A stretch of 64,000 nt of DNA, from NCBI RefSeq assembly GCF_002564005.1, contig NZ_PDJG01000001.1, positions 1,736,001 to 1,800,000 on the forward strand. The letters run 5' to 3'. Origin of the DNA: Sanguibacter antarcticus (lineage in GTDB: Bacteria; Actinomycetota; Actinomycetes; Actinomycetales; Cellulomonadaceae). The notes below the pieces were generated by a model. It searched no databases and was not told the DNA's origin. It saw only the letters and a program-made list of their open reading frames with translations. Every line of letters begins with the position of its first letter. Position 1 is the first letter of the stretch. The position numbers and the translations under genes were made by a program. Shown one piece after another: positions 51,899-64,000 of the stretch.

Positions 51899-53683
51899 CT
51901 AGACGTCTCCTCCCGACCGCTCGCCGAAGAGTGCACCGGCTCCCTTGAGCTCGGTGACCTCGTCGCCCAGACGGGCCAGCAGGGCGTGCCGCGCCTCGCG
52001 TCGCCGACGCTGCTCGACCGGGTCGGGAACCGGGGCTGCGGCGAGGAGCCTCTGGGTGTACTCCTCCTGCGGCGCGTGCAGCACCTCCTCCCGCAGCCCC
52101 TGCTCGACGACCCGACCGTTCTGGAGCACGACCACCCGGTGCGCGAGCGCGTCGACGACGGCGAGGTCGTGGCTGACGAAGAGGCACGCGAAGCGGTAGC
52201 GCTCCTGCAGCGCGGTGAACATCGCGAGGACGCTGGCCTGGACCGAGACGTCCAGCGCGGAGGTCGGCTCGTCGGCGACGAGCAGCTCAGGATCGAGCAC
52301 GAGCGCACGAGCGATGCTCACCCGTTGCCGCTGTCCGCCGGAGAGCTCGTGGGGGTAGCGGTTCGTCGCCGATCGTGGGAGCTCGACGGCATCGAGCAGC
52401 TCGTGCACACGGGCCAGCCGCTTCTGGGCAGACCGCTCGCCGTGGACGACGAGCGGCTCCGCGATGCAGTCTCCTACGGGGAGCCGGGGGTTGAGCGATC
52501 CGGCCGGGTCTTGGAAGACGACGCCGATGCGCTTGCGCAGGGCCTTGAGCGGCCGGCGTCGCAAGGACCCGAGGTCTTCGCCGAACACCGAGACGGTCCC
52601 GCTCGCGGCAGGGATGAGCCCGAGGGTGCAGCGCCCGATCGTCGACTTCCCGGAGCCGGACTCCCCTACGAGCCCGACGATCTCCCCCGGCTCGACGGTG
52701 AAGGACACGGAGTCCACCGCACGGAAGGCTCGCTTGCCGAGGCTCTGGTACTCGATGACGACGTCGTTCAGCGCAAGGACCGGGGGCGAGCCGTCGACCA
52801 CGGGCGCCACCGACGTGGGCTCCCCCGTCGTACGTACCTCTCCCATCCTCGCACCGAGCCGTGGGACAGCCCCCAGGAGCCTGCGCGTGTACTCGTGCTG
52901 CGGGTCCGTCAGCACGGACTGCGCGCTCCCGACCTCGACGATCTCTCCCTCGAGCATGACCGCCACACGGTCGGCCATGTCCGCGACGACCCCCATATTG
53001 TGCGTGATGAGGAGGATTCCCGTGCGCAGCGTGTCCTTGAGCGAGCGCAAGAGGTCGAGGATCTCCGCCTGGACGGTGACGTCGAGAGCCGTGGTCGGTT
53101 CGTCGGCGATGATCACCCGCGGCTCACAGCTGATCGCGAGAGCGATGACCACACGCTGACGCTGCCCGCCCGACAGCTCGTGGGGATACTGCTTGACCCG
53201 ACGCTCCGGCTCGGGGATCCCGACGGTGCGCAGGAGCTCGACGGCCCGGGCCTCGGCCTGTGCACCGAGAGCGATGCCGTGCAGCTCGAGCGCCTCGGTC
53301 AGCTGGAGGCCGATCGTCAAGACAGGGTTGAGCGCCGTCATCGGTTCCTGGAAGACCATCGCGACGTCGTGGCCGCGCATCCGGCGCAGACCTCGCGCGT
53401 CGAGATCGCCGAGAGCCGTGTCCCCGACCCGGACCACCCCGGTCGTGCGCGCGTTCTTCGGCAGGAGGCCGAGCGCCGTCATGGACGTGACGGACTTCCC
53501 GGAGCCGGACTCTCCGACGAGCGCGACCACCTCGCCTGCCCGGACGTCGAGCGTGATTCCTCGCACCGCACGCACGTCGCCGAACTGCGTCGTGAACGTC
53601 ACGGAGAGATCCTCGAAGGCGAGGACCTGCGGGTCCTCGGACTCCGCGCCGATGCCGGCGCGGTCGTCGGCGAGAGTCGTCAT
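51899..53683 (-). CDS. oligopeptide ABC transporter ATPase, fused OppD-OppF type (system 2)
   Basis: A 594-residue protein with two complete nucleotide-binding domains. Each has Walker A (GESGSGKS), a signature LSGGQRQRV and Walker B (DEPTTALD and DEPTSALD). The C-terminal extension after each half (DPQHEYTRRLL, APQEEYTQRLL) is typical of peptide and nickel transporters. It powers peptide import with the two permeases encoded upstream. Start 53683 overlaps the permease gene stop (ATGA). Confidence 0.92.
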   Translation of the reverse strand: MTTLADDRAGIGAESEDPQVLAFEDLSVTFTTQFGDVRAVRGITLDVRAGEVVALVGESGSGKSVTSMTALGLLPKNARTTGVVRVGDTALGDLDARGLRRMRGHDVAMVFQEPMTALNPVLTIGLQLTEALELHGIALGAQAEARAVELLRTVGIPEPERRVKQYPHELSGGQRQRVVIALAISCEPRVIIADEPTTALDVTVQAEILDLLRSLKDTLRTGILLITHNMGVVADMADRVAVMLEGEIVEVGSAQSVLTDPQHEYTRRLLGAVPRLGARMGEVRTTGEPTSVAPVVDGSPPVLALNDVVIEYQSLGKRAFRAVDSVSFTVEPGEIVGLVGESGSGKSTIGRCTLGLIPAASGTVSVFGEDLGSLRRRPLKALRKRIGVVFQDPAGSLNPRLPVGDCIAEPLVVHGERSAQKRLARVHELLDAVELPRSATNRYPHELSGGQRQRVSIARALVLDPELLVADEPTSALDVSVQASVLAMFTALQERYRFACLFVSHDLAVVDALAHRVVVLQNGRVVEQGLREEVLHAPQEEYTQRLLAAAPVPDPVEQRRRREARHALLARLGDEVTELKGAGALFGERSGGDV

Positions 53684-54705
53684 GAGCTCGTGCTCCTGTT
53701 CTGGCGGGGGTCGAAGGCGTCGCGCAGCCCGTCGCCGATGAAGTTGACGGACAGTGCGATCGTGAGGATGAAGAGTCCTGGCCACCAGAACAGCCACGGA
53801 CGGGTGGTGAACGCGCTCTGGTAGTTGCTGATGAGCAGACCGAGCGACACGTCCGGCGGCTTGACGCCGAAGCCGAGGAAGCTCAGCGACGTCTCGAGCA
53901 GGATCGCCGAGGCGATCGCCAGTGTGCCTGAGACGACGATCACCCCGATCGAGTTCGGCAGGATGTGCTTGACGATCGTCCGGGGACCGCTCGTCCCGAT
54001 CGCCCTCGCCGACAGGACGAAGTCGCGCTCACGGAGCGAGAGCACCTCGCCGCGCACGAGTCGCGCGAGACCCGTCCACGTCACGAGACCGAGCATCCCC
54101 GCGAGCGCGAGGACGCCAGACCGGGACGCGATCTGGCCGAGCACCGCCGCGAGGACGAGCAGCGGGATGACGATGAAGAGATCGGTCAGGCGCATGAGGA
54201 CCGCCTCGACGATCCCCCGGTAGTAGCCGGCGAGCGCTCCGACGATCGTCCCGAGGAGCGTGCTGACGATGCCGACGACGAAGGCGATGATGAGCGAGAT
54301 CTGCGTCCCGCGCATCGTCAGCGCGAAGTAGTCCTTGCCGGCGTTGTCCTGTCCGAAGGGGTGCTCTCCCCAGGCGAGCGGGACGAGGGAGAGCGTGGGC
54401 GCGCCGCCGTCGACGAGGTCGGCTGCCCGGCCGAAGTCCTTGTCCCACCACCCGGGGAGGGGTCCGACACCGATCGAGGTGAAGGCGAGCAGGACGACGA
54501 AGAGCAGGACCCCGAGCGAGACCATCGCCCCTGTGTGCCGGAAGAAGCGCCGTCGGACGAGCTGACCCTGGGTGTAGGAGCGTTCTTCCGGGCGCCCGGG
54601 CGCCGCGAGCGGCATGACGTGGCCAGGGACCGGGGAGATCCCGGCGGCTGTCGGTGACGGGACGTAGTCGTCCTGGGACGGTTCTGGCTGGTGCTCATCA
54701 GGCAT
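53680..54705 (-). CDS. oligopeptide ABC transporter permease DppC/OppC type (system 2)
   Basis: A 341-residue permease with an N-terminal cytoplasmic extension, a first membrane helix (MVSLGVLLFVVLLAF) and the C-terminal BPD_transp_1 domain. The EAA-loop reads DFVLSARAIGTSGPRTIVKH, which contacts the ATPase. The HPFGQDNAGKDYF element after helix 1 is the usual OppC motif. It lies 60 bases after the partner permease and overlaps the ATPase gene. Confidence 0.9.
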   Translation of the reverse strand: MPDEHQPEPSQDDYVPSPTAAGISPVPGHVMPLAAPGRPEERSYTQGQLVRRRFFRHTGAMVSLGVLLFVVLLAFTSIGVGPLPGWWDKDFGRAADLVDGGAPTLSLVPLAWGEHPFGQDNAGKDYFALTMRGTQISLIIAFVVGIVSTLLGTIVGALAGYYRGIVEAVLMRLTDLFIVIPLLVLAAVLGQIASRSGVLALAGMLGLVTWTGLARLVRGEVLSLRERDFVLSARAIGTSGPRTIVKHILPNSIGVIVVSGTLAIASAILLETSLSFLGFGVKPPDVSLGLLISNYQSAFTTRPWLFWWPGLFILTIALSVNFIGDGLRDAFDPRQNRSTSS

Positions 54706-54765
54706 GGGTGCCTCCGACGGACGACGGGACGGGCAGGCGGACGGACGACGCGCGCGGCACGGCGC

Positions 54766-56298
54766 TCACCGCCTGATCCTGGGATCGAGGAAGCCATAGG
54801 CGATGTCGGCGAGCAGGTTCATGAGGATCGCCGCTGATCCTGTGACGAGGAAGAACGCCATGACCGGTACGGGGTCGACCTGGGTCAGCCCCGTCTTGAA
54901 GAGCTCACCCATGCCCTTCCACCCGAAGACCTGCTCGGTGATCACGGCGCCTCCGATGAGGCCGGCGAAGTCGAACGCGACGATCGTCGTGATGGGGATG
55001 AGCGCGTTGCGGAAGGCGTGCCGGGTGATGACGGTGCGCTCGCTCAGTCCTTTGGACCGTGCCGTGCGGACGTAGTCCTGCTCGAGCACGTCGAGCATCG
55101 AGGACCGCGTGTACCTGCTGTACGAAGCGACCGAGATGAGGGTGAGCAGGATCGTCGGGAGGAGGAGCTGGGTGCCCTTGTCGATGGCGTCCTCCCAGAA
55201 CGTGCCGACGAACCCTGGGGTCGACGCGCCGATCGTCGAGATGGGGCGCGCCTGGAGGGCGAGGTAGGACCCCCAGTACTCGACGACCTTGCTCGCTCCG
55301 ACGAGGACTGCGAACACTGTCGCGGTGACGAAGGACACCAGCATCGCTTGCTTGCGGGAGTACCCGCCCATGAGCCTGCCGATGACGAGTGCGACACCGG
55401 CCCACAGCGCACCGAGGCCGAGGAGCACGATCGGGTGGGAAGGGTCGTCGATGACGTCGCGCAGCACGAGCGTCGCCACGACACCGACGACAGCGGTGGT
55501 CAGCGACGCTGCCAGCACCCGCTTGTTCGCCAGGCCGCTCACGAGTGCGGTCATGAGCACAGCGCACGCCACCCCACCGACGAGGAGGAGGCCTGTTGCC
55601 GGCACCACCCCGGCCGGCGGTTCGCGGAACCAGCCGTTCGCGCTGAAGACGGCGAGCGTCGTGACGACGTACAGCGCGCCCCCTCCGCCGGTGAGCAGAC
55701 GACGACGCAGCGTTCCTCCGACGATCGCCTGGAGGAGCAGACCGCCGCCCAGGCCCACGAGCACGATCGTCAAGGGACTGATGTCTGGGTCCGCGATCCA
55801 GTTGTTGAACCGGATCGCTCCGTACTCCTTGAGGAGGACGGCCGCCCAGAAGACGGGGAGCGAGAAGAAGAGGAAGGCCAGCAGCGTCACGGCATAGTCG
55901 AAGCCGGAGTACTGCCGGATGGCGGTGAGGATGCCGACCGCGACGCCGACGACGATCGCGAGGAGGGTAGAGAGCACCACGAGCCGCAGCGTCGTCACGG
56001 CGGCGTTGCCCATGAGCTGCACGACGTCGACGCCGTTGCGCGTGGTACCGAGGTCGCAGCTCAGCGCGAAGCAGCGACCGACGCCGAGGAGCCAGCTCCC
56101 GTACCTCGTCCACCACGGGACGTCGAGGTCCATGGTCTCGATCCGCGCGTTCATGAGCGTCGCGCGGTTCTCGGCGTTGGACTCCCGCAGGTCCGCGAGG
56201 GGGTCGCCGGAGAGGGTCACGAGCCAGAACAGCAGCGCGGACGCGCCGAGCATGACGAGGAGCGAGATGCCGACCCGTCGGAGAGTGAATCTGAGCAC
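54766..56298 (-). CDS. oligopeptide ABC transporter permease DppB/OppB type with extra membrane helices (system 2)
   Basis: A 510-residue permease, far longer than the usual 310-330. The normal N-terminal OppB part (LRFTLRRVGISLLVML, residues 1-17) and the C-terminal EAA loop region (DYVRTARSKGLSERTVITRH) are conserved. Between them, about residues 176-345 form an additional hydrophobic segment with perhaps five or six extra helices. I recall such long OppB forms in other actinobacteria. The GTG start at 56298 follows AAGGG by 8 bases. Confidence 0.88.
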   Translation of the reverse strand: MLRFTLRRVGISLLVMLGASALLFWLVTLSGDPLADLRESNAENRATLMNARIETMDLDVPWWTRYGSWLLGVGRCFALSCDLGTTRNGVDVVQLMGNAAVTTLRLVVLSTLLAIVVGVAVGILTAIRQYSGFDYAVTLLAFLFFSLPVFWAAVLLKEYGAIRFNNWIADPDISPLTIVLVGLGGGLLLQAIVGGTLRRRLLTGGGGALYVVTTLAVFSANGWFREPPAGVVPATGLLLVGGVACAVLMTALVSGLANKRVLAASLTTAVVGVVATLVLRDVIDDPSHPIVLLGLGALWAGVALVIGRLMGGYSRKQAMLVSFVTATVFAVLVGASKVVEYWGSYLALQARPISTIGASTPGFVGTFWEDAIDKGTQLLLPTILLTLISVASYSRYTRSSMLDVLEQDYVRTARSKGLSERTVITRHAFRNALIPITTIVAFDFAGLIGGAVITEQVFGWKGMGELFKTGLTQVDPVPVMAFFLVTGSAAILMNLLADIAYGFLDPRIRR

Positions 56299-56340
56299 GT
56301 GAGAACCCTTCGTTGCTACGTGAGAAGGATGGCGCAGCGA

Positions 56341-56376
56341 GAGCGGGACGGAAGGTGGTGACCTCCTGTCCCGCTC
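56341..56376 (-). terminator. hairpin between binding-protein and permease genes (system 2)
   Basis: A 9-bp perfect stem (56341-56349 with 56368-56376) in the 146-base gap between the binding-protein gene and the permease gene. A second hairpin with a 7-bp stem lies next to it (56380-56397). They probably lower permease expression relative to the receptor, as the hairpin at 62610-62647 does in system 1. Confidence 0.6.
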
Positions 56377-56379
56377 CCG

Positions 56380-56397
56380 CACGCCGCGAGCGGCGTG
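56380..56397 (-). terminator. second small hairpin behind the binding-protein gene (system 2)
   Basis: A 7-bp perfect stem (56380-56386 with 56391-56397) and 4-base loop directly upstream of the previous hairpin in transcript order. Alone it would be weak; with its neighbour it forms a double hairpin. Confidence 0.45.
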
Positions 56398-56444
56398 ACC
56401 TGAACCGGCGCTGTCTGACCCGTCAGGGCCAGCAGGTCAGCAGG

Positions 56445-58325
56445 TCAGCGGACCCACTGCTCGGCGTTCCACACGGACTGGTCCTGCGTGGACGTCTTGA
56501 TGACGTTCTGGATCGACGAGTCGAAGCCGACGAGGCCCGGGTGGGCGAAGACGGGGATGCCGTGGAGGTCGTCCCACAGCGCCTTCTCGATGATCTTCGT
56601 CTGCTCGAGGTGCACGGCCGGGTCGACCGACGCCTCGAGCGTCTTCCAGGCGGCGTCGACGTCGCTGTTGGAGTACCAGTTCCAGTTCTGCGGGGCGTCC
56701 GTGGCGTAGATGTTGCCGCCCGAGGCGATCTGACCGGATCCGGCCCACGCGAAGAGCGCGACCTCGAAGTCGCCCTTCGACCGCTCGCCACCTTCGTCGA
56801 AGAAGGTCGAGGAGCTCGCGTCGACGATCGTGAAGCCAGCCTGGTCACAGCTCGACTTGATGAGCGCGACCTCGTCGGCACGACGGGCGTTCCCGGCCGA
56901 GTAGCCGATGCGCACCTCGATCGGCGTCTCGACACCGGACTCTTCGATCTTGGCGCGCGCGCCGTCGAGGTCGACCTCGTCGTAGCGTCCGTCGTACGAC
57001 GTGGCGAGGACCTCGTCGTAGGTGTCCTGGAACGGGAAGACCTCGCGTGCGTTCATGACGACGGCGTCCGGGTTGATCGGCTTGACGAGGTTGTCGACGA
57101 TCTGCTGGCGCGGCACGCACATCGCGAACGCCTCACGGACCGCGAGGTTGTCCGCGAACGGCCCGCTCTTCTGGTTCAGGTCGAGGTGCTCCCAGGTGAG
57201 CGAGTCACCGGTGAGGATCGTCGCGTTCGGGACGGCCTGCAGCTGGGTGAGGGTGTCGACGGTCGGTTGCGGCTCGATGACGTTGAGGTCACCGTTGGCG
57301 AGCGCCTGGACGTGCGTGCTGGGATCAGCGAAACGGAACGTCAGGCGCTGGGTCGCCGCCGGCGTGCCCCAGTACGCGTCGTTCGCCTCGAGGGTGATGG
57401 ACTGCCCTGCCACCCACGTCCCGAACGTGTACGGCCCGGCGACCGGGATGAGCGCTGCGTCCGGAAGGGTTCCTGGTGACGGGTTCTGCCACCCGGTGTT
57501 GAAGAACTCTGCGGCCTTCTGGATGGTCTCGAAGTCCTCGTCGAGGATCGCCTGGGTGAGCTCGTCCTCACCGAGACCGACCTGGTCGGCCACGATGTGT
57601 GCCGGGTACCACTGCCCGAGCCCGCCGACGAGGAGCTTCCAGTCCGCGTACGGGTTCTTGAACGTCACGACGAACTCTTTGCCGCCGAGCTCGCCCTCGG
57701 GGCCGTTCGGCACGTACTCGCCGTAGGAACCGCTCACGCTGTTGAAGAGCTGGCACTCCGGGTTCTCGGCGTAGAGCGTGTTCCCGCTCGTGTACGTCTG
57801 GATCGCCCAGTCGAGGACCATGTCGTCGTAGTCGATCGGGTTGCCGTCCGAGAACACCGCGTCCTCGTTGATCGTGTACCGGACGGTGAGCGGATCGTCG
57901 GCGAGCTTCTCGATGGTGCCGAACTCGGGGTTGCTGTAGATCGTCCCGTCGGTCCCGAAGTACGCGAACGACGTGCTGGTGCGACTGTTGACCACGGAGG
58001 TGTACACGTCATAGTTCTCGGGGATGGAGCCGTTGTAGCCGGCCCACTCGTCCTGCCCGACGGAGTAGAAGATCTCGTCGTCAGCGGTCTCGGCCGCTGG
58101 CAGGTCCAGCTTTGCGGTGCCGCCGGTCGTCGGGAACTCCTCTGGTGTGAGGGGTGCACCCTCTTCAGCTGCCTAGACGGAGTCGTCGTGGGCGCTCATG
58201 GAGCAGACGCCGCTCGCTGCGGTATCGGTCTCGGTGACCTCTTCGGTCCCGCCCGAGCAACCCGAGACCATCAAGATCCCGCTCGTCAGCAGCGCGACGG
58301 GCGCTGCCCTTCTCGTGAACTTCAA
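56445..58325 (-). pseudogene. oligopeptide-binding lipoprotein gene interrupted by in-frame amber codon (system 2)
   Basis: The frame runs from a TTG start at 58325 (GGGGAGGAAC just upstream) to 56445, 626 sense codons plus an internal TAG. Codons 1-50 encode a lipoprotein signal (lipobox SGC, then SGGTEEV) and end MSAHDDSV-TAG at 58175-58173. The same frame stays open on the far side: after 55 further sense codons with no start codon among them, an internal GTG at 58007 leads into a normal SBP_bac_5 protein (NGSIPENYD, IGYSAGN, YSNSDVDAAW, HGIPVFAHPGLVG). No frameshift is needed. Codon use is the same on both sides. Either a recent nonsense change (CAG to TAG fits a single base), a sequencing error or readthrough. 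Without readthrough the system 2 receptor is lost. Confidence 0.85.
58173..58175 (-). other. in-frame amber codon within the binding-protein gene
   Basis: CTA on the plus strand reads TAG at codon 51 of the interrupted gene. The flanking codons are GTC and GCA. There is no local repeat or shift around it, which favours a simple base change. Confidence 0.85.
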
Positions 58326-58640: not shown

Positions 58641-60611
58641 TCACACGTCGGAGTACGAGCCCGGCCCGGACGGCATGATGTCCAGGCGTGAGCCTGGGAT
58701 CGCCCCGAGGAGCTCACGCGTGTACTCCTCTTGCGGGTAGTCGAACACCTCGTCCGTGGACGAGGCCTCGATGATCCGCCCGTTCTTCATCACGCAGACC
58801 TGGTCCGCGATCTGCCGCACGACCGCGAGGTCGTGCGTGATGAACAGGTAGCTCAGCCCAAGCTCGGCCTGCAGATCGTTGAGAAGCTCGAGGATCTGCG
58901 CCTGGACGAGGACGTCGAGTGCCGAGACTGCCTCGTCGCACACGATGAGCTCAGGTCGCAGTGCCAGAGCACGCGCGATCGCGATGCGCTGCCGCTGGCC
59001 GCCCGAGAGCTCGTTCGGGAACCGGCGCATGGTGGCCTGCGGGAGCGCCACCATGTCGAGGAGCTCGCGCACGCGCATCTCCCGCTCCTTCTTCGAGCCG
59101 ACCTTGTGGATCCGCAGGGGCTCCTCGATCGTCCGGAAGATGGAGTACATGGGGTCAAGCGAACCGTAGGGGTTCTGAAAGATCGGCTGGACCCGCCGAC
59201 GGAAGTCGAAGAGCTCCTTCTTGTCGAGCGTGCTCAGGTCGACGCCGTCGAAGAAGATCTTTCCCTCGGTCGGGTCGAGCAGGTTGAGCATGATGTTCGC
59301 GACCGTGGACTTGCCGGAGCCCGACTCCCCCACGAGCGCGACGGTCGTCCCGCTCTTGATCCGGAACGACACGTCGTCGACAGCCTTGAAGTCCTGGTGC
59401 TTGCCGGATCCACGGATCTGGAAGACCTTGGTGAGGTTCTCCACGATGAGGACGTCCTCGCGGTGGTCGTCTCCCTGTCCGCGTGTCGCCGCGAGCAGCT
59501 CCTTGGACTCGATGCCCGCAGCCTTTGCGCTCTGGATGCGCTTCGATGCCAGCGACGGGGCAGCCGCGACGAGACGCTGCGTGTACGGGTGCTGCGGGTT
59601 GGCGAGGATCTCGCGGGACGGACCGGACTCGACGACCCGCCCGCGATACATGACGACCAGCTGCTCGGCACGCTCGGCTGCGAGGCCGAGGTCGTGCGTG
59701 ATGAACAGGACAGCAGTCCCGAGCTCCTGCGTCAGCTCCTCGAGGTGGTCGAGGATGGTGCGCTGGACAGTGACGTCGAGAGCAGACGTCGGTTCGTCGG
59801 CGATGAGGAGCTTCGGGCGCGCTGCCAGGCCGATCGCGATGAGCGCACGCTGGCGCATACCGCCAGAGAACTCGTGCGGGAACTGCTTCGCACGCCGGAC
59901 CGCGTCAGGAAGGCCCGCTTCAGCGAGGAGCCCCGCGACCCGGTCGTCGATGTCGGCTGTCCCGGCCTTCGACGAGACCACCCTCGTCGCGGACGGCACA
60001 CCGGCCTCCGAGAGGATCGTCACCGCCTCGGACCTGGTGGTGGACCCGACGACGAGCCGGTCTTCCACGACCGCCAACGCGGCGGGCAGCGATGCGCGCG
60101 GAAGATTCGACTTCTCACGCACCACCCCGAGGAGGGTCGCCTTCGCACGACGACCGATGAGAAGATCCCCGTCGGACGTTCCCTCACCGCTCGCACCGAG
60201 CCCGTGCTGGGTCCGACGCGTCACGTCGATCTCGTTGGCCTTCAGGCCTTCCTTGACCTGGTAACCGATGCTCCAGACGGGATTGAGGTTGGACATCGGG
60301 TCCTGTGGAACGAGGCCGATGGAGCTGCCGCGCAGAGCGACCATCTCATCGCTAGAAGCCTCGGTGATGTCCACGCCGTCGAACCAGATGGACCCGCCGG
60401 TCACCCGGCCCGTCCCCGGCAGGAGGCCGATGATCGCGTGGGCGCTGGTCGATTTTCCGGACCCGGACTCACCGACGATGGCGACAGACTGGCCCGGGTA
60501 GATGGTGAAGTTCGCACCGCGGACGGCCGGCACCTCACCCGCGAGGGTGGTAAAGCTGACGTCGAGGTCGCGGATCTCGAGAAGTGGCTCTTGGTCGTTC
60601 ACGGCGGTCAT
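58641..60611 (-). CDS. oligopeptide ABC transporter ATPase, fused OppD-OppF type with insertion (system 1)
   Basis: A 656-residue double ATPase. Domain 1 has GESGSGKST (48-55), and FSGGMRQRA with DEPTSALD; domain 2 has a second GESGSGKST, LSGGQRQRI and a Walker B reading VCDEAVSALD, where the usual DEP is DEA. An insertion of about 90 residues (about 130-222) separates the Q-loop part of domain 1 (GLVPQDPMSN) from its signature motif. The start overlaps the permease gene stop (ATGA). Confidence 0.9.
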   Translation of the reverse strand: MTAVNDQEPLLEIRDLDVSFTTLAGEVPAVRGANFTIYPGQSVAIVGESGSGKSTSAHAIIGLLPGTGRVTGGSIWFDGVDITEASSDEMVALRGSSIGLVPQDPMSNLNPVWSIGYQVKEGLKANEIDVTRRTQHGLGASGEGTSDGDLLIGRRAKATLLGVVREKSNLPRASLPAALAVVEDRLVVGSTTRSEAVTILSEAGVPSATRVVSSKAGTADIDDRVAGLLAEAGLPDAVRRAKQFPHEFSGGMRQRALIAIGLAARPKLLIADEPTSALDVTVQRTILDHLEELTQELGTAVLFITHDLGLAAERAEQLVVMYRGRVVESGPSREILANPQHPYTQRLVAAAPSLASKRIQSAKAAGIESKELLAATRGQGDDHREDVLIVENLTKVFQIRGSGKHQDFKAVDDVSFRIKSGTTVALVGESGSGKSTVANIMLNLLDPTEGKIFFDGVDLSTLDKKELFDFRRRVQPIFQNPYGSLDPMYSIFRTIEEPLRIHKVGSKKEREMRVRELLDMVALPQATMRRFPNELSGGQRQRIAIARALALRPELIVCDEAVSALDVLVQAQILELLNDLQAELGLSYLFITHDLAVVRQIADQVCVMKNGRIIEASSTDEVFDYPQEEYTRELLGAIPGSRLDIMPSGPGSYSDV

Positions 60612-61600
60612 CGCTTCCGCGCCTTCGGGTCGAGGGCGTCACGCACGGCGTCGCCCATCATGATGAAGCTCAGGACGGTGATAGCGAGCGCTGCTGAGGG
60701 GTAGAAGAGCACGCTGGCGTTCGTCCGGAGCGAGGTCTGGGCCGTAGAGATGTCATGCCCCCACGACAGGACGCTCTGCGGCAGCCCGATCCCGAGGAAG
60801 GAGAGCGTGGCCTCGGCGACGATGAAGATCCCGAGCGACACGGTCGCGATGACGATGATCGGCGCTGCGGCGTTGGGGATGACGTGGCGCAGGAGAGTCT
60901 CGAACTTCGAGGCACCGAGCGCTTTCGCGGCGGTGATGAAGTCGTTGTTCTTCACGGCGAGCACCGCACCACGGGTGATGCGTGCTACTTGAGGCCATCC
61001 GAACACGGAGAGGATAGCGACGACGTTGAGGACCGTCTTGCTGTCCTGGAACACCTGGCCGAAGACGATCGCTGCGAGCACGAGCGGGATCGCGAAGAAG
61101 ATGTCGGTCACTCGCGAGAGGATCGTGTCGAACCATCCACCGTAGAAGCCAGCGATCGCACCGATCGCGGTTCCGAGGAGCACGACGCCGAGCGTCGTGA
61201 GGATACCGACCGTGACGGAGGCGCGCGCGCCGTAGATCACTCGGGAGTAGACGTCACAGCCCTGCCGGTCGAAGCCGAACGGGTGACCGGACTGCGGCTG
61301 GCCGAGGGAGTTGCGGAGCTCGCAGAACCTGGGGTCGACGGAGGTGAAGAGACCCGGGAAGAACGCCACGGCGAGCACGAGCACGATCAGGACTGCGGAG
61401 GCCCAGAACAGTGCACGGCCACGCAGGTCGCGCCATGCGTCACCCCACAGGCTGCTCGGTGCCTCGTTCTCATTGACCTTGTCGACGACAGCGAGAGGTG
61501 TTTCGCTCAGGTCGGCGACGAAGTGTGCCTGTGAGGGGCGACGCGCGGTGGTGGCCGCCCCGGAAAGGTCTTTGCGCACTGGGTTCACGCTCTCAGACAT
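60608..61600 (-). CDS. oligopeptide ABC transporter permease DppC/OppC type (system 1)
   Basis: A 330-residue permease with a cytoplasmic N-terminus of about 60 residues, first helix near 65-85, and the HPFGFDRQGCDVYSRV motif. The BPD_transp_1 domain carries the EAA loop DFITAAKALGASKFETLLRH. It overlaps the neighbouring permease gene by 8 bases and the ATPase gene by 4. Confidence 0.92.
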   Translation of the reverse strand: MSESVNPVRKDLSGAATTARRPSQAHFVADLSETPLAVVDKVNENEAPSSLWGDAWRDLRGRALFWASAVLIVLVLAVAFFPGLFTSVDPRFCELRNSLGQPQSGHPFGFDRQGCDVYSRVIYGARASVTVGILTTLGVVLLGTAIGAIAGFYGGWFDTILSRVTDIFFAIPLVLAAIVFGQVFQDSKTVLNVVAILSVFGWPQVARITRGAVLAVKNNDFITAAKALGASKFETLLRHVIPNAAAPIIVIATVSLGIFIVAEATLSFLGIGLPQSVLSWGHDISTAQTSLRTNASVLFYPSAALAITVLSFIMMGDAVRDALDPKARKR

Positions 61601-62519
61601 AACGGATCCTCGGGTCGAGGACGGCGTAAAGGAGGTCGACGAGCAGGTTTCCGATGATGTAGACGATCACGAGGATCGTCACGAAGGTCACCACCGTCGT
61701 CGGTTCTCCGCGGATGATGGCTTGGTAGAGAGTTCCACCGACACCCGGGACGTTGAAGATCGCCTCGGTCACGATGGCGCCGCCCATGAGGGCGCCGAGG
61801 TCGGCTCCGAGGAACGTCACCACGGGGATGAGAGAGTTCCTCAGCACGTGGACGTTGACCACGCGCGTCCGGGACAGCCCCTTCGCAGTCGCTGTCCGCA
61901 CATAGTCAGCGGTGAGGTTCTCTGCGACCGAGGTGCGGGTGAGCCGGAGCACGTACGCGAAGGACACTGCTCCGAGCACCGCTGCCGGCATGAGCAGGCT
62001 CACGAAGTCCTCGTTCCCTCCGACTGTCGGAGGGAGCCAGTTGAGCCTCACGCCGAACGTGAACTGCATGACGAAACCGATGACGAACGTCGGGACGGCG
62101 ATGACGATGAGGCTCACGACGAGGACGCTCGCATCGAAGATGCCGCCCTTGCGGAGCCCGGCGATGAGGCCGACGCCGATGCCGAGGACCGACTCGAAGA
62201 CCATCGCGAGGATCGCGATCTTGAAGGTCACGGGGAACGCGCGAGCGATGACGTCCATCACCGGCTGACCCGAGAACGAGTTCCCGAAGTCGAGCGTGAA
62301 GATGCCCTTGAGGTAGAGCAGGTACTGGATGAAGAACGGCTGGTCGAGATTGAACTGCGCGCGGATCTGGTCGGCGACTGCTGGGGAGAGCCCACGCTCG
62401 CCGCCGAGAGCCTGGATCGGGTCTCCAGGAAGAGCGAAGACCATTGCATAGATCAGCAGAGTCGACCCGAGAAACACCGGGATCATCTGCAACAGTCTGC
62501 GTCCGATATAACGGACCAT
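61593..62519 (-). CDS. oligopeptide ABC transporter permease DppB/OppB type (system 1)
   Basis: A 308-residue permease of normal length with six membrane helices. It begins MVRYIGRRLLQMIPV and has the LPGDPIQAL loop and the EAA loop DYVRTATAKGLSRTRVVNVH. The start at 62519 follows GAAGGAAGGA. It lacks the extra helices seen in the system 2 counterpart. A hairpin lies upstream between it and the binding-protein gene. Confidence 0.93.
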   Translation of the reverse strand: MVRYIGRRLLQMIPVFLGSTLLIYAMVFALPGDPIQALGGERGLSPAVADQIRAQFNLDQPFFIQYLLYLKGIFTLDFGNSFSGQPVMDVIARAFPVTFKIAILAMVFESVLGIGVGLIAGLRKGGIFDASVLVVSLIVIAVPTFVIGFVMQFTFGVRLNWLPPTVGGNEDFVSLLMPAAVLGAVSFAYVLRLTRTSVAENLTADYVRTATAKGLSRTRVVNVHVLRNSLIPVVTFLGADLGALMGGAIVTEAIFNVPGVGGTLYQAIIRGEPTTVVTFVTILVIVYIIGNLLVDLLYAVLDPRIRYV

Positions 62520-62675: not shown

Positions 62676-64000
62676 TCACCACTCGTTGATGGCGTTCGCC
62701 TCTGCCCACAGTTCCTTGGCCTTCTCGGGGTTGAACTCGAGAACCTCAGAGCCGGCCAGTGTCTCGTTCCAGCCAGCGATCGTCGGCGACGTGAAGTCCT
62801 TCGCCGGGGTACGTGTGCCCTGGAAGATCGTGTCCGTGATCGACTGACGGTCGATCGCCATAGAGATGGCCTGGCGACGGAGGTTGCCCTCTTCACCCTC
62901 GAAGTGCTCGAGGTTCTGAGCCATCGTGAAGGACTGGAACACTGCGGACGGCTGGTTGACCGCGCGGGTTCCGAGGTCGTCCTCGTAGGTCCCGAAGGCG
63001 CTGTCCGGGACGGCGTCCAGCACGTCGAGGTTGTTCGCGAGGAGGTCGTTGTACGCCGAGTCCTGGTTGTCGTAGAACGTGATCGTCACGCCGGCGTTCG
63101 CCGGCTTACGAACTCCGCTGTAGGACGGGTTCGGCTCGAGGTCGATGCTGACGTTGTGCTCCCACGAGCCGGGGGTGACCATGTAGGGGCCGTTGCCGAT
63201 CGGGTTCTCGCCGAACGCAGCCATGTCCGTGAAGGCGGCGGCCGGGAGCGGCATGAACGCGGTGTAGCCGAGGCGGAGCGGGAAGTCAGCCTCAGGCTGC
63301 TGGAGCTGGACCGTGAACGTCGTGTCGTCGACGACGTTGAGGCCGGTGAGCTCTGACTCCTCGTCGTAGGAGAAGCCTTCGATGCCCTCGAAGAAGTACG
63401 AGGACAGCTGAGCGTTGCTCAGGAGCCCGCCGTACTTCCAGGCGTCGACGAACGAGGCGGCGGTGACCGGCTCGCCGTTCGTGAAGGTGGTGCCGCCCTT
63501 GATCTTGATCGTGTAGAGCTGGTTGTCCGTCGTCTCGATCGACTCGGCCAGCTCGTTCACGGGAGTGCCGTCAGCCTCGTAGGAGACGAGCCCGGCGAAG
63601 ATGAGGTCGGTGATCTTTCCGCCACCGGTCTCGTTCGTGTTCGTGGGAACGAGAGGGTTCGCAGGCTCGGAGCCGTTGACGAGGACCGGGGTTCCGTCAG
63701 CCTTGGTCACCGCGTAGTAGAGCGGGACGCTGTTCCAGCCGAAGGCCACGTCAGCGACGTTCTCCGAGGAGCCGCCGGTGACGTTGGAGTACCAGAGGGG
63801 GATCGCGGGAAGGTCCTGGAACAGGACCTCCTGAGCCTGGTCGAAGATCACGTTGGCGTCTTCGAGCGTCGCTGCGGCCTGTCCCTGGCTGAGGAGGGAG
63901 TCGAAGTCTGCGTTCGAGTAGTCGCCGTCGTTCGAGCCTGCACCCGTGCCGTAGATCGGGCCGAGGAAGTTGTAGAGGCTGGGGTAGTCAGCCTGCCATC
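62676..64000 (-). CDS. fused or permuted oligopeptide-binding protein (system 1, incomplete at the window edge)
   Basis: The minus-strand frame is open from the right edge to TGA at 62676, 440 codons. The first 99 codons (63998 to 63702) encode a normal C-terminal end of an SBP_bac_5 receptor (WQADYPSLYNFLGPIYG, YSNADFDSL, DLPAIPLWYSNVTGG, ending YYAVTK). In frame, without a stop or signal peptide, an N-terminal half then follows (VLVNGSEPANPL, TNTNETGGG, FAGLVSYEADG, later LRRQAISMAIDRQ) and ends at ANAINEW, where normal receptors continue with the second lobe. The order is therefore reversed from the family order. It may be a full receptor followed by a partial second copy, or a permutation; the upstream part is outside the window. 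Confidence 0.85.
   Translation of the reverse strand, partial: WQADYPSLYNFLGPIYGTGAGSNDGDYSNADFDSLLSQGQAAATLEDANVIFDQAQEVLFQDLPAIPLWYSNVTGGSSENVADVAFGWNSVPLYYAVTKADGTPVLVNGSEPANPLVPTNTNETGGGKITDLIFAGLVSYEADGTPVNELAESIETTDNQLYTIKIKGGTTFTNGEPVTAASFVDAWKYGGLLSNAQLSSYFFEGIEGFSYDEESELTGLNVVDDTTFTVQLQQPEADFPLRLGYTAFMPLPAAAFTDMAAFGENPIGNGPYMVTPGSWEHNVSIDLEPNPSYSGVRKPANAGVTITFYDNQDSAYNDLLANNLDVLDAVPDSAFGTYEDDLGTRAVNQPSAVFQSFTMAQNLEHFEGEEGNLRRQAISMAIDRQSITDTIFQGTRTPAKDFTSPTIAGWNETLAGSEVLEFNPEKAKELWAEANAINEW

Follow-up and report, generated by a model that had tools for sequence, protein, structure and literature searches.

At the right edge of the window analysed here (64,000 nucleotides, C1:1736001-1800000 of the one-contig, 3,521,501-bp genome of Sanguibacter antarcticus), a gene for an oligopeptide-binding protein appears to encode its C-terminal half ahead of its N-terminal half, which raises the question of whether it is a true circular permutant, a fusion with an additional half domain or an assembly error. 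The minus-strand frame (62676-63998) continues uninterrupted to the window edge; its translation is WQADYPSLYNFLGPIYG...LYYAVTK, then ADGTP, then VLVNGSEPANPL...ANAINEW and a stop; the order of the halves and the junction at 63701/63702 are as given in a preliminary description of this DNA. The complete ORF continues for 292 bases beyond the edge to a TTG start at C1:1800292, preceded by GGGAGGAACA. The 538-residue protein begins with a lipoprotein signal, KIRKLSRITAFAAVGALALTAC, which is followed by a short tether, the C-terminal piece (residues 41-197), the joint ADGTP (198-202) and the N-terminal part (203-538) (Table 1). The lipobox, ALTAC/G at residues 19-24, includes Cys23, which is invariant in a 34-row alignment of permuted proteins; with a signal peptide, lipobox and cysteine of the Gram-positive type, the protein is a predicted lipoprotein. 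The preliminary description left room for a full N-terminal half with a signal peptide beyond position 64000; the signal peptide is there, but the sequence upstream of 64000 contains no N-terminal half before the permuted ORF, and the complete ORF and the downstream sequence contain no second C-piece after the N-part.

Table 1. Features of the permuted receptor gene and of its operon (positions are those of the window)
Feature	Position	Strand	Evidence or remark
Permuted peptide-binding lipoprotein gene, in-window part	62676..64000	-	whole ORF is L006:3677-5293:-, 538 aa; full-length colinear homologs
Lipoprotein signal (residues 1-23) and residues 41-98 of the C-terminal piece	beyond 64000	-	complete ORF
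Native C-terminal piece, residues 99-197	63702..63998	-	PF00496 277-367; query 42-198 = 8wd9_A 361-517
Joint ADGTP, from former C-terminus (..YYAVTK) to former mature N-terminus (VLVNGSEP..)	63687..63701	-	sequence; joint comparison; AlphaFold pLDDT 95, 93
Native N-terminal part, residues 203-538, new C-terminus ..NAINEW	62679..63686	-	PF00496 2-282; query 202-538 = 8wd9_A 10-357
Stop codon TGA at the cut	62676..62678	-	standard-order relatives continue ..PW(S/D/E)G(T)FTIAYN..
OppB-type permease gene, next in operon	61593..62519	-	ORF list, locus matches
OppC-type permease gene	60608..61600	-	ORF list, locus matches
Fused double ATPase gene (OppDF-type)	58641..60611	-	ORF list, locus matches

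Architecture of the receptor and its relationship to DppA

A profile search with the complete protein identifies PF00496 (SBP_bac_5), the profile of the family-5 or cluster C peptide-binding proteins, with 195.7 bits (cut-off 32.4) in two stretches in swapped order, such that profile positions 277-367 precede positions 2-282 and the linear order of the profile is broken. Scored separately, the N-part reaches 177.1 bits and the C-part 25.8 bits, the latter alone falling below the cut-off. On a standard-order relative, P0022, the same profile forms a single stretch (2-367). The receptor of the second peptide transporter in the window is also in standard order, as the preliminary description held (a single PF00496 stretch, profile 11-349, C1:1792736-1793908); its operon (window 53680-58007, minus strand) directly adjoins the first. 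Both segments of the permuted protein are homologous to the standard protein, swapped, present once each and in one frame, and its homologs are colinear with it over the full length, which is what is expected of a natural circular permutant, one of the possibilities raised at the outset. The gene lies beside two permease genes and an ATPase gene, the typical context of an Opp/Dpp receptor.

By both sequence and fold, the closest solved relative is DppA from Mycobacterium tuberculosis (PDB entries 7jls, 8wd9, 8xfc and 6e3d), to which both pieces align, with 52-55% identity in the N-part. The M. tuberculosis protein, however, has the standard order and a tether at the N-lobe end: query residues 202-538 correspond to 10-357 of the 8wd9_A chain and residues 42-198 to 361-517, so that three DppA residues are missing at the cut and otherwise none. 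Asp102 of the permuted receptor does not vary among the 34 permuted rows and aligns with Asp445 of DppA, which is mutated in 8xfc and serves to hold the N-terminus of the peptide. In E. coli DppA, R383 and D436 hold the peptide N-terminus, and M. tuberculosis DppA is the lipoprotein of a receptor-permease-double-ATPase transporter (PMC12136057). Orthologs from Cellulomonas, Georgenia and Microbacteriaceae occupy the same position before OppB-OppC-OppDF and show up to 73-74% identity per segment, but are unpermuted. At the cut point, standard-order relatives read AISPW-SG-TFTIAYN. Permuted proteins end in W, WE, F or WNG, depending on the lineage, and each has its own signal and tether, after which the chain resumes at the strand FTIAYN. 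The joints between the former termini comprise few residues and are lineage-specific (e.g., ADGTP, ADGSA, TAPGG).

Structure prediction for the complete protein, proposed in the preliminary description, yields one confident fold (AlphaFold, 34-row alignment, pLDDT 86.1, pTM 0.82); the joint is covered by two blocks of 10 residues, with pLDDT of 95 and 93. The top Foldseek match to the model is DppA, and model residues 198-538 superimpose on 8wd9 with an rmsd of 1.6 over 341 residues. Foldseek and VIA-align compare structures in chain order and cover residues 197-538 only, so that the placement of the C-piece rests on pLDDT and pTM. The permuted chain is predicted to fold as the usual two-lobed receptor; it would close into this fold because the old termini lie on adjacent strands, with a turn of five residues between them.

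Distribution, gene context and signs of function

Five of the six genomes of the genus, the source genome included, encode a protein that aligns over residues 1-538 with 74-76% identity; in the sixth (G001), a close copy of the receptor is absent. The nearest named protein, with 84% identity, comes from Sanguibacter sp. 25GB23B1. A search of 200 genomes of the family, with up to seven candidates scored per genome, detects one full-length match in each of eight genomes, and about 70 others show a strong match to the N-part alone, in standard order wherever the DNA was read. At E<=1e-150, the 396 genomes of the order yield 11 full-length or near-full-length rows and nine further permuted genomes. 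The permuted form accounts for 30 of the 219 listed proteins, with the query and its own record counted, and its holders include Sanguibacter, Actinomyces, Microbacterium, Arenivirga, Frigoribacterium and a Bifidobacteriaceae MAG. A list of the 80 best loci, out of 448 in named genomes, contains 27 with the cut of the window gene (cut A), one with another cut and 52 in standard order; drawn with a permuted query, this list gives no estimate of frequency. All receptors at these 80 loci, permuted or standard, precede the same OppB genes; thus, a comparison of orthologous loci, as originally suggested, finds the swapped order recurring alongside standard-order loci in the same operon position. 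Permuted frames are apparently broken by a frame change at L085 (Actinomyces bovis record), L109 (A. oris S64C record) and L060 (G340). Tandem standard-order receptor genes are found ahead of OppB at five Cryobacterium loci (L091, L097, L103, L104 and L106).

At the cut-A loci, OppB and OppC matches are present downstream in 27 of 27 cases and OppDF in 26 (the contig of L074 is 6.4 kb long), and the gene order is that of the standard-order loci. The N-part has a single match at E<=1e-30 in 17 of 18 cut-A genomes. The genome G330 has three receptor matches, all permuted, which indicates that the permuted form itself diverged into paralogs there; these paralogs (L180, L181 and L182) match the N-part of the window protein at 47%, 39% and 56%, respectively. 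The dN/dS ratio is 0.14-0.34 in eight pairs, and purifying selection acts on the permuted gene. The permuted receptor is likely functional and would bind and deliver peptides in the same manner as the standard form.

With the gene cut by the window edge, the window by itself would leave open an artefact of assembly or annotation, in which neighbouring or duplicated genes are joined in the wrong order. The complete data refute the assembly error considered in the preliminary description: in a genome of one contig, no break interrupts the frame between the lipoprotein signal and the stop, and four further genomes of this genus, as well as many other assemblies, show the same order at full length, with 51-84% identity. 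The receptor with an additional half domain that was also envisaged, left behind by a tandem duplication, is likewise refuted for this gene. The tandem Cryobacterium genes are raw material for fusions of this kind, but the sequence past the window edge adds no more than the lipoprotein signal and the beginning of the C-piece, the complete ORF includes every segment a single time, and a 1036-aa double query identifies no fused N-C-N-C protein among 70 matches, the longest in-family protein having 636 aa. Decay into a frame without function, to which the frame breaks in the three permuted relatives would point, is very hard to reconcile with the low dN/dS values, the sole close copy in nearly all cut-A genomes, the intact operon and the invariant ligand aspartate.

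Number of origins and other cuts

For phylogenetic analysis, the segments were restored to standard order before tree building; the main tree includes 85 of 209 rows, with near-copies, L109 and L173 left out. On this tree, the cut-A label requires five changes, at least four of which are forced by well-supported branches, and 0% of 200 bootstrap trees have a single change of the permuted label. The cut-A groups, named after inspection of the tree, are Sanguibacter with g25 and g16; Actinomyces; f20; one f45 genome; and Microbacterium-Arenivirga-Frigoribacterium. In the receptor and permease trees alike, the permuted Microbacterium forms are placed within the standard-order genes of Microbacterium, and the f45 permuted form nests among f45 standard genes in the 85-row tree. 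The N-part alone requires five changes and the C-piece alone six. A tree of the permeases OppB and OppC, which is free of the permuted gene (54 of 82 rows, none of them a standard-order f45 row), requires four changes, two of them forced. The placement of f20 and L087 differs between an earlier quick tree and the careful tree.

Approximately unbiased (AU) tests reject a single clade for all 31 permuted genes (N+C, p 5e-5). On 45 rows, the joined groups rejected are Sanguibacter with Microbacterium (p 5.5e-4), Microbacterium with f45 (p 3.9e-5), Sanguibacter with f45, Sanguibacter with Actinomyces, f20 and f45 (p 3e-8), and Actinomyces with f20 and Microbacterium (p 0.002). The groupings that the tests do not reject are Sanguibacter with f20 (0.49), Actinomyces with f20 (0.18), Sanguibacter with Actinomyces (0.25) and all three together (0.24). 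The best tree shows the Sanguibacter, Actinomyces and f20 forms with separate origins, yet the AU test does not demand this (p 0.18-0.49), and one origin may be common to the Sanguibacter, Actinomyces and Bifidobacteriaceae forms. Given the rejection of the joined groups, cut A likely arose at least three times among these relatives.

A single permutation followed by horizontal spread of the permuted gene between families would account for the cut being in the same loop in every cut-A protein; the AU test leaves room for one origin of three of the groups, and on the C-piece alone a common clade of all permuted genes is not rejected (p 0.10). Nevertheless, this scenario is unlikely in view of the rejection of one clade by the combined segments and of the position of the Microbacterium and f45 forms within the standard-order genes of their own lineages, and the exact ends, joints and signals vary by lineage. 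Repeated permutation in place is the reading preferred here.

The same receptor family has been cut at other sites. In the MAG Micrococcales bacterium 73-13, the gene L087:5643-7292 (plus strand) is cut between LRTEVND and AFRTGW, so that the signal is followed by the C-piece from AFRTGW, the joint VTKADGSPV, the N-part, the start of the C-piece and a stop, and then by the same operon. The model of this protein (cut B, 20-row alignment) is weaker, with pLDDT 78.3, pTM 0.76 and low values in the last 30 residues. A third cut is represented by L175:1396-3258 (minus strand) of G1003 and by P0284 (Nitriliruptoraceae bacterium MAG, listed as partial), which are 76% identical, start at the helix VRRRQAVSMAIN and stop before it; this group has four standard-order relatives (L176-L179). 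The trees suggest that these two further cuts arose in other lineages. On the sequence comparisons, the circular permutation of this receptor is true, conserved and repeatedly evolved.

Route of origin, membrane tether and significance

Taken together, these observations are best explained if the gene encodes, as is very probable, a natural circular permutant of a peptide-binding lipoprotein, which likely originated in place by tandem duplication, fusion and trimming and is predicted to adopt the normal two-lobed fold and to feed the adjoining OppBC-DF transporter. Under this scheme, the receptor gene would have been duplicated in tandem, the former ends of the copies would have fused, and trimming at both sides would have created a new start that kept the export signal; the product would hand peptides to the transporter encoded beside it. 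Permutation by duplication, i.e., tandem duplication, fusion and a new start and stop, has been proposed for DNA methyltransferases and for saposin/swaposin (PMC3320104). The present case differs from these in that no fused or half-trimmed intermediate was found and the new start must retain an export signal. Tandem duplication with in-frame fusion, as offered in the preliminary description, thus stands as the likeliest route, but the fused intermediate that it implies is missing from the proteins searched. An 1119-aa protein was rejected as a candidate; it holds one unrelated standard copy. At 15 permuted loci, tblastn detects no match of either segment, as a remnant of a second copy, in the roughly 400 bases after the stop.

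The position of the cuts bears on the anchoring of the receptor. Model residue 538 corresponds to residue 354 of 1ola; with the borders of domain III at 271-486, all three cuts would, by their position in OppA-like chains, fall in the C-lobe. Because the signal and the cysteine remain at the new N-terminus, the membrane tether should shift to the C-lobe (domain III), away from the N-lobe (domain I). The tether is of similar length in the two forms, with a median of 18 residues from the cysteine to the core in 29 of 31 permuted rows versus 22 in 51 of 52 standard rows.

Natural circular permutations are mostly regarded as single ancient events, the history of which is unclear. Among open-licence PubMed Central papers, no description of a peptide receptor that was permuted repeatedly was found, and the titles and abstracts of such papers on permuted peptide or solute receptors yield only Tp0684 and engineered cases. 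Tp0684 (MglB-2) of Treponema pallidum, designated 'Type Ic / Cluster Bc', is a naturally permuted binding lipoprotein of an ABC importer, and the authors of its structure suggest tethering as a possible cause of the permutation (PMC4990184). Tp0684, however, is a sugar receptor of the type I/cluster B fold in which other strands have moved, is described in one lineage, and is neither a PF00496 protein nor repeatedly permuted at one site. The sequence and fold matches of the receptor analysed here are to family-5 peptide receptors rather than to cluster Bc.

In the present family, one gene of one conserved operon has undergone permutation several times, at no more than three sites, and has standard-order sisters with 60-75% identity. 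Such close natural pairs of permuted and standard forms make both the route and the consequence of the change in topology testable. Profile searches return two weak pieces for genes of this kind, so that more of them may be hidden in current annotation. These natural variants of a Venus-flytrap receptor, with the tether likely on the other lobe, offer a direct test of the role of tether position in peptide import. A bolder and rather doubtful reading is that this receptor family is a permutation hot spot, with cuts in the C-lobe and closure in the N-lobe, five times in one loop and twice elsewhere, among orthologous operons from different families of actinobacteria, where re-anchoring was selected for changed docking or waiting at the transporter. 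If true, this would mean that evolution has repeatedly switched which lobe anchors a Gram-positive peptide receptor to the membrane.
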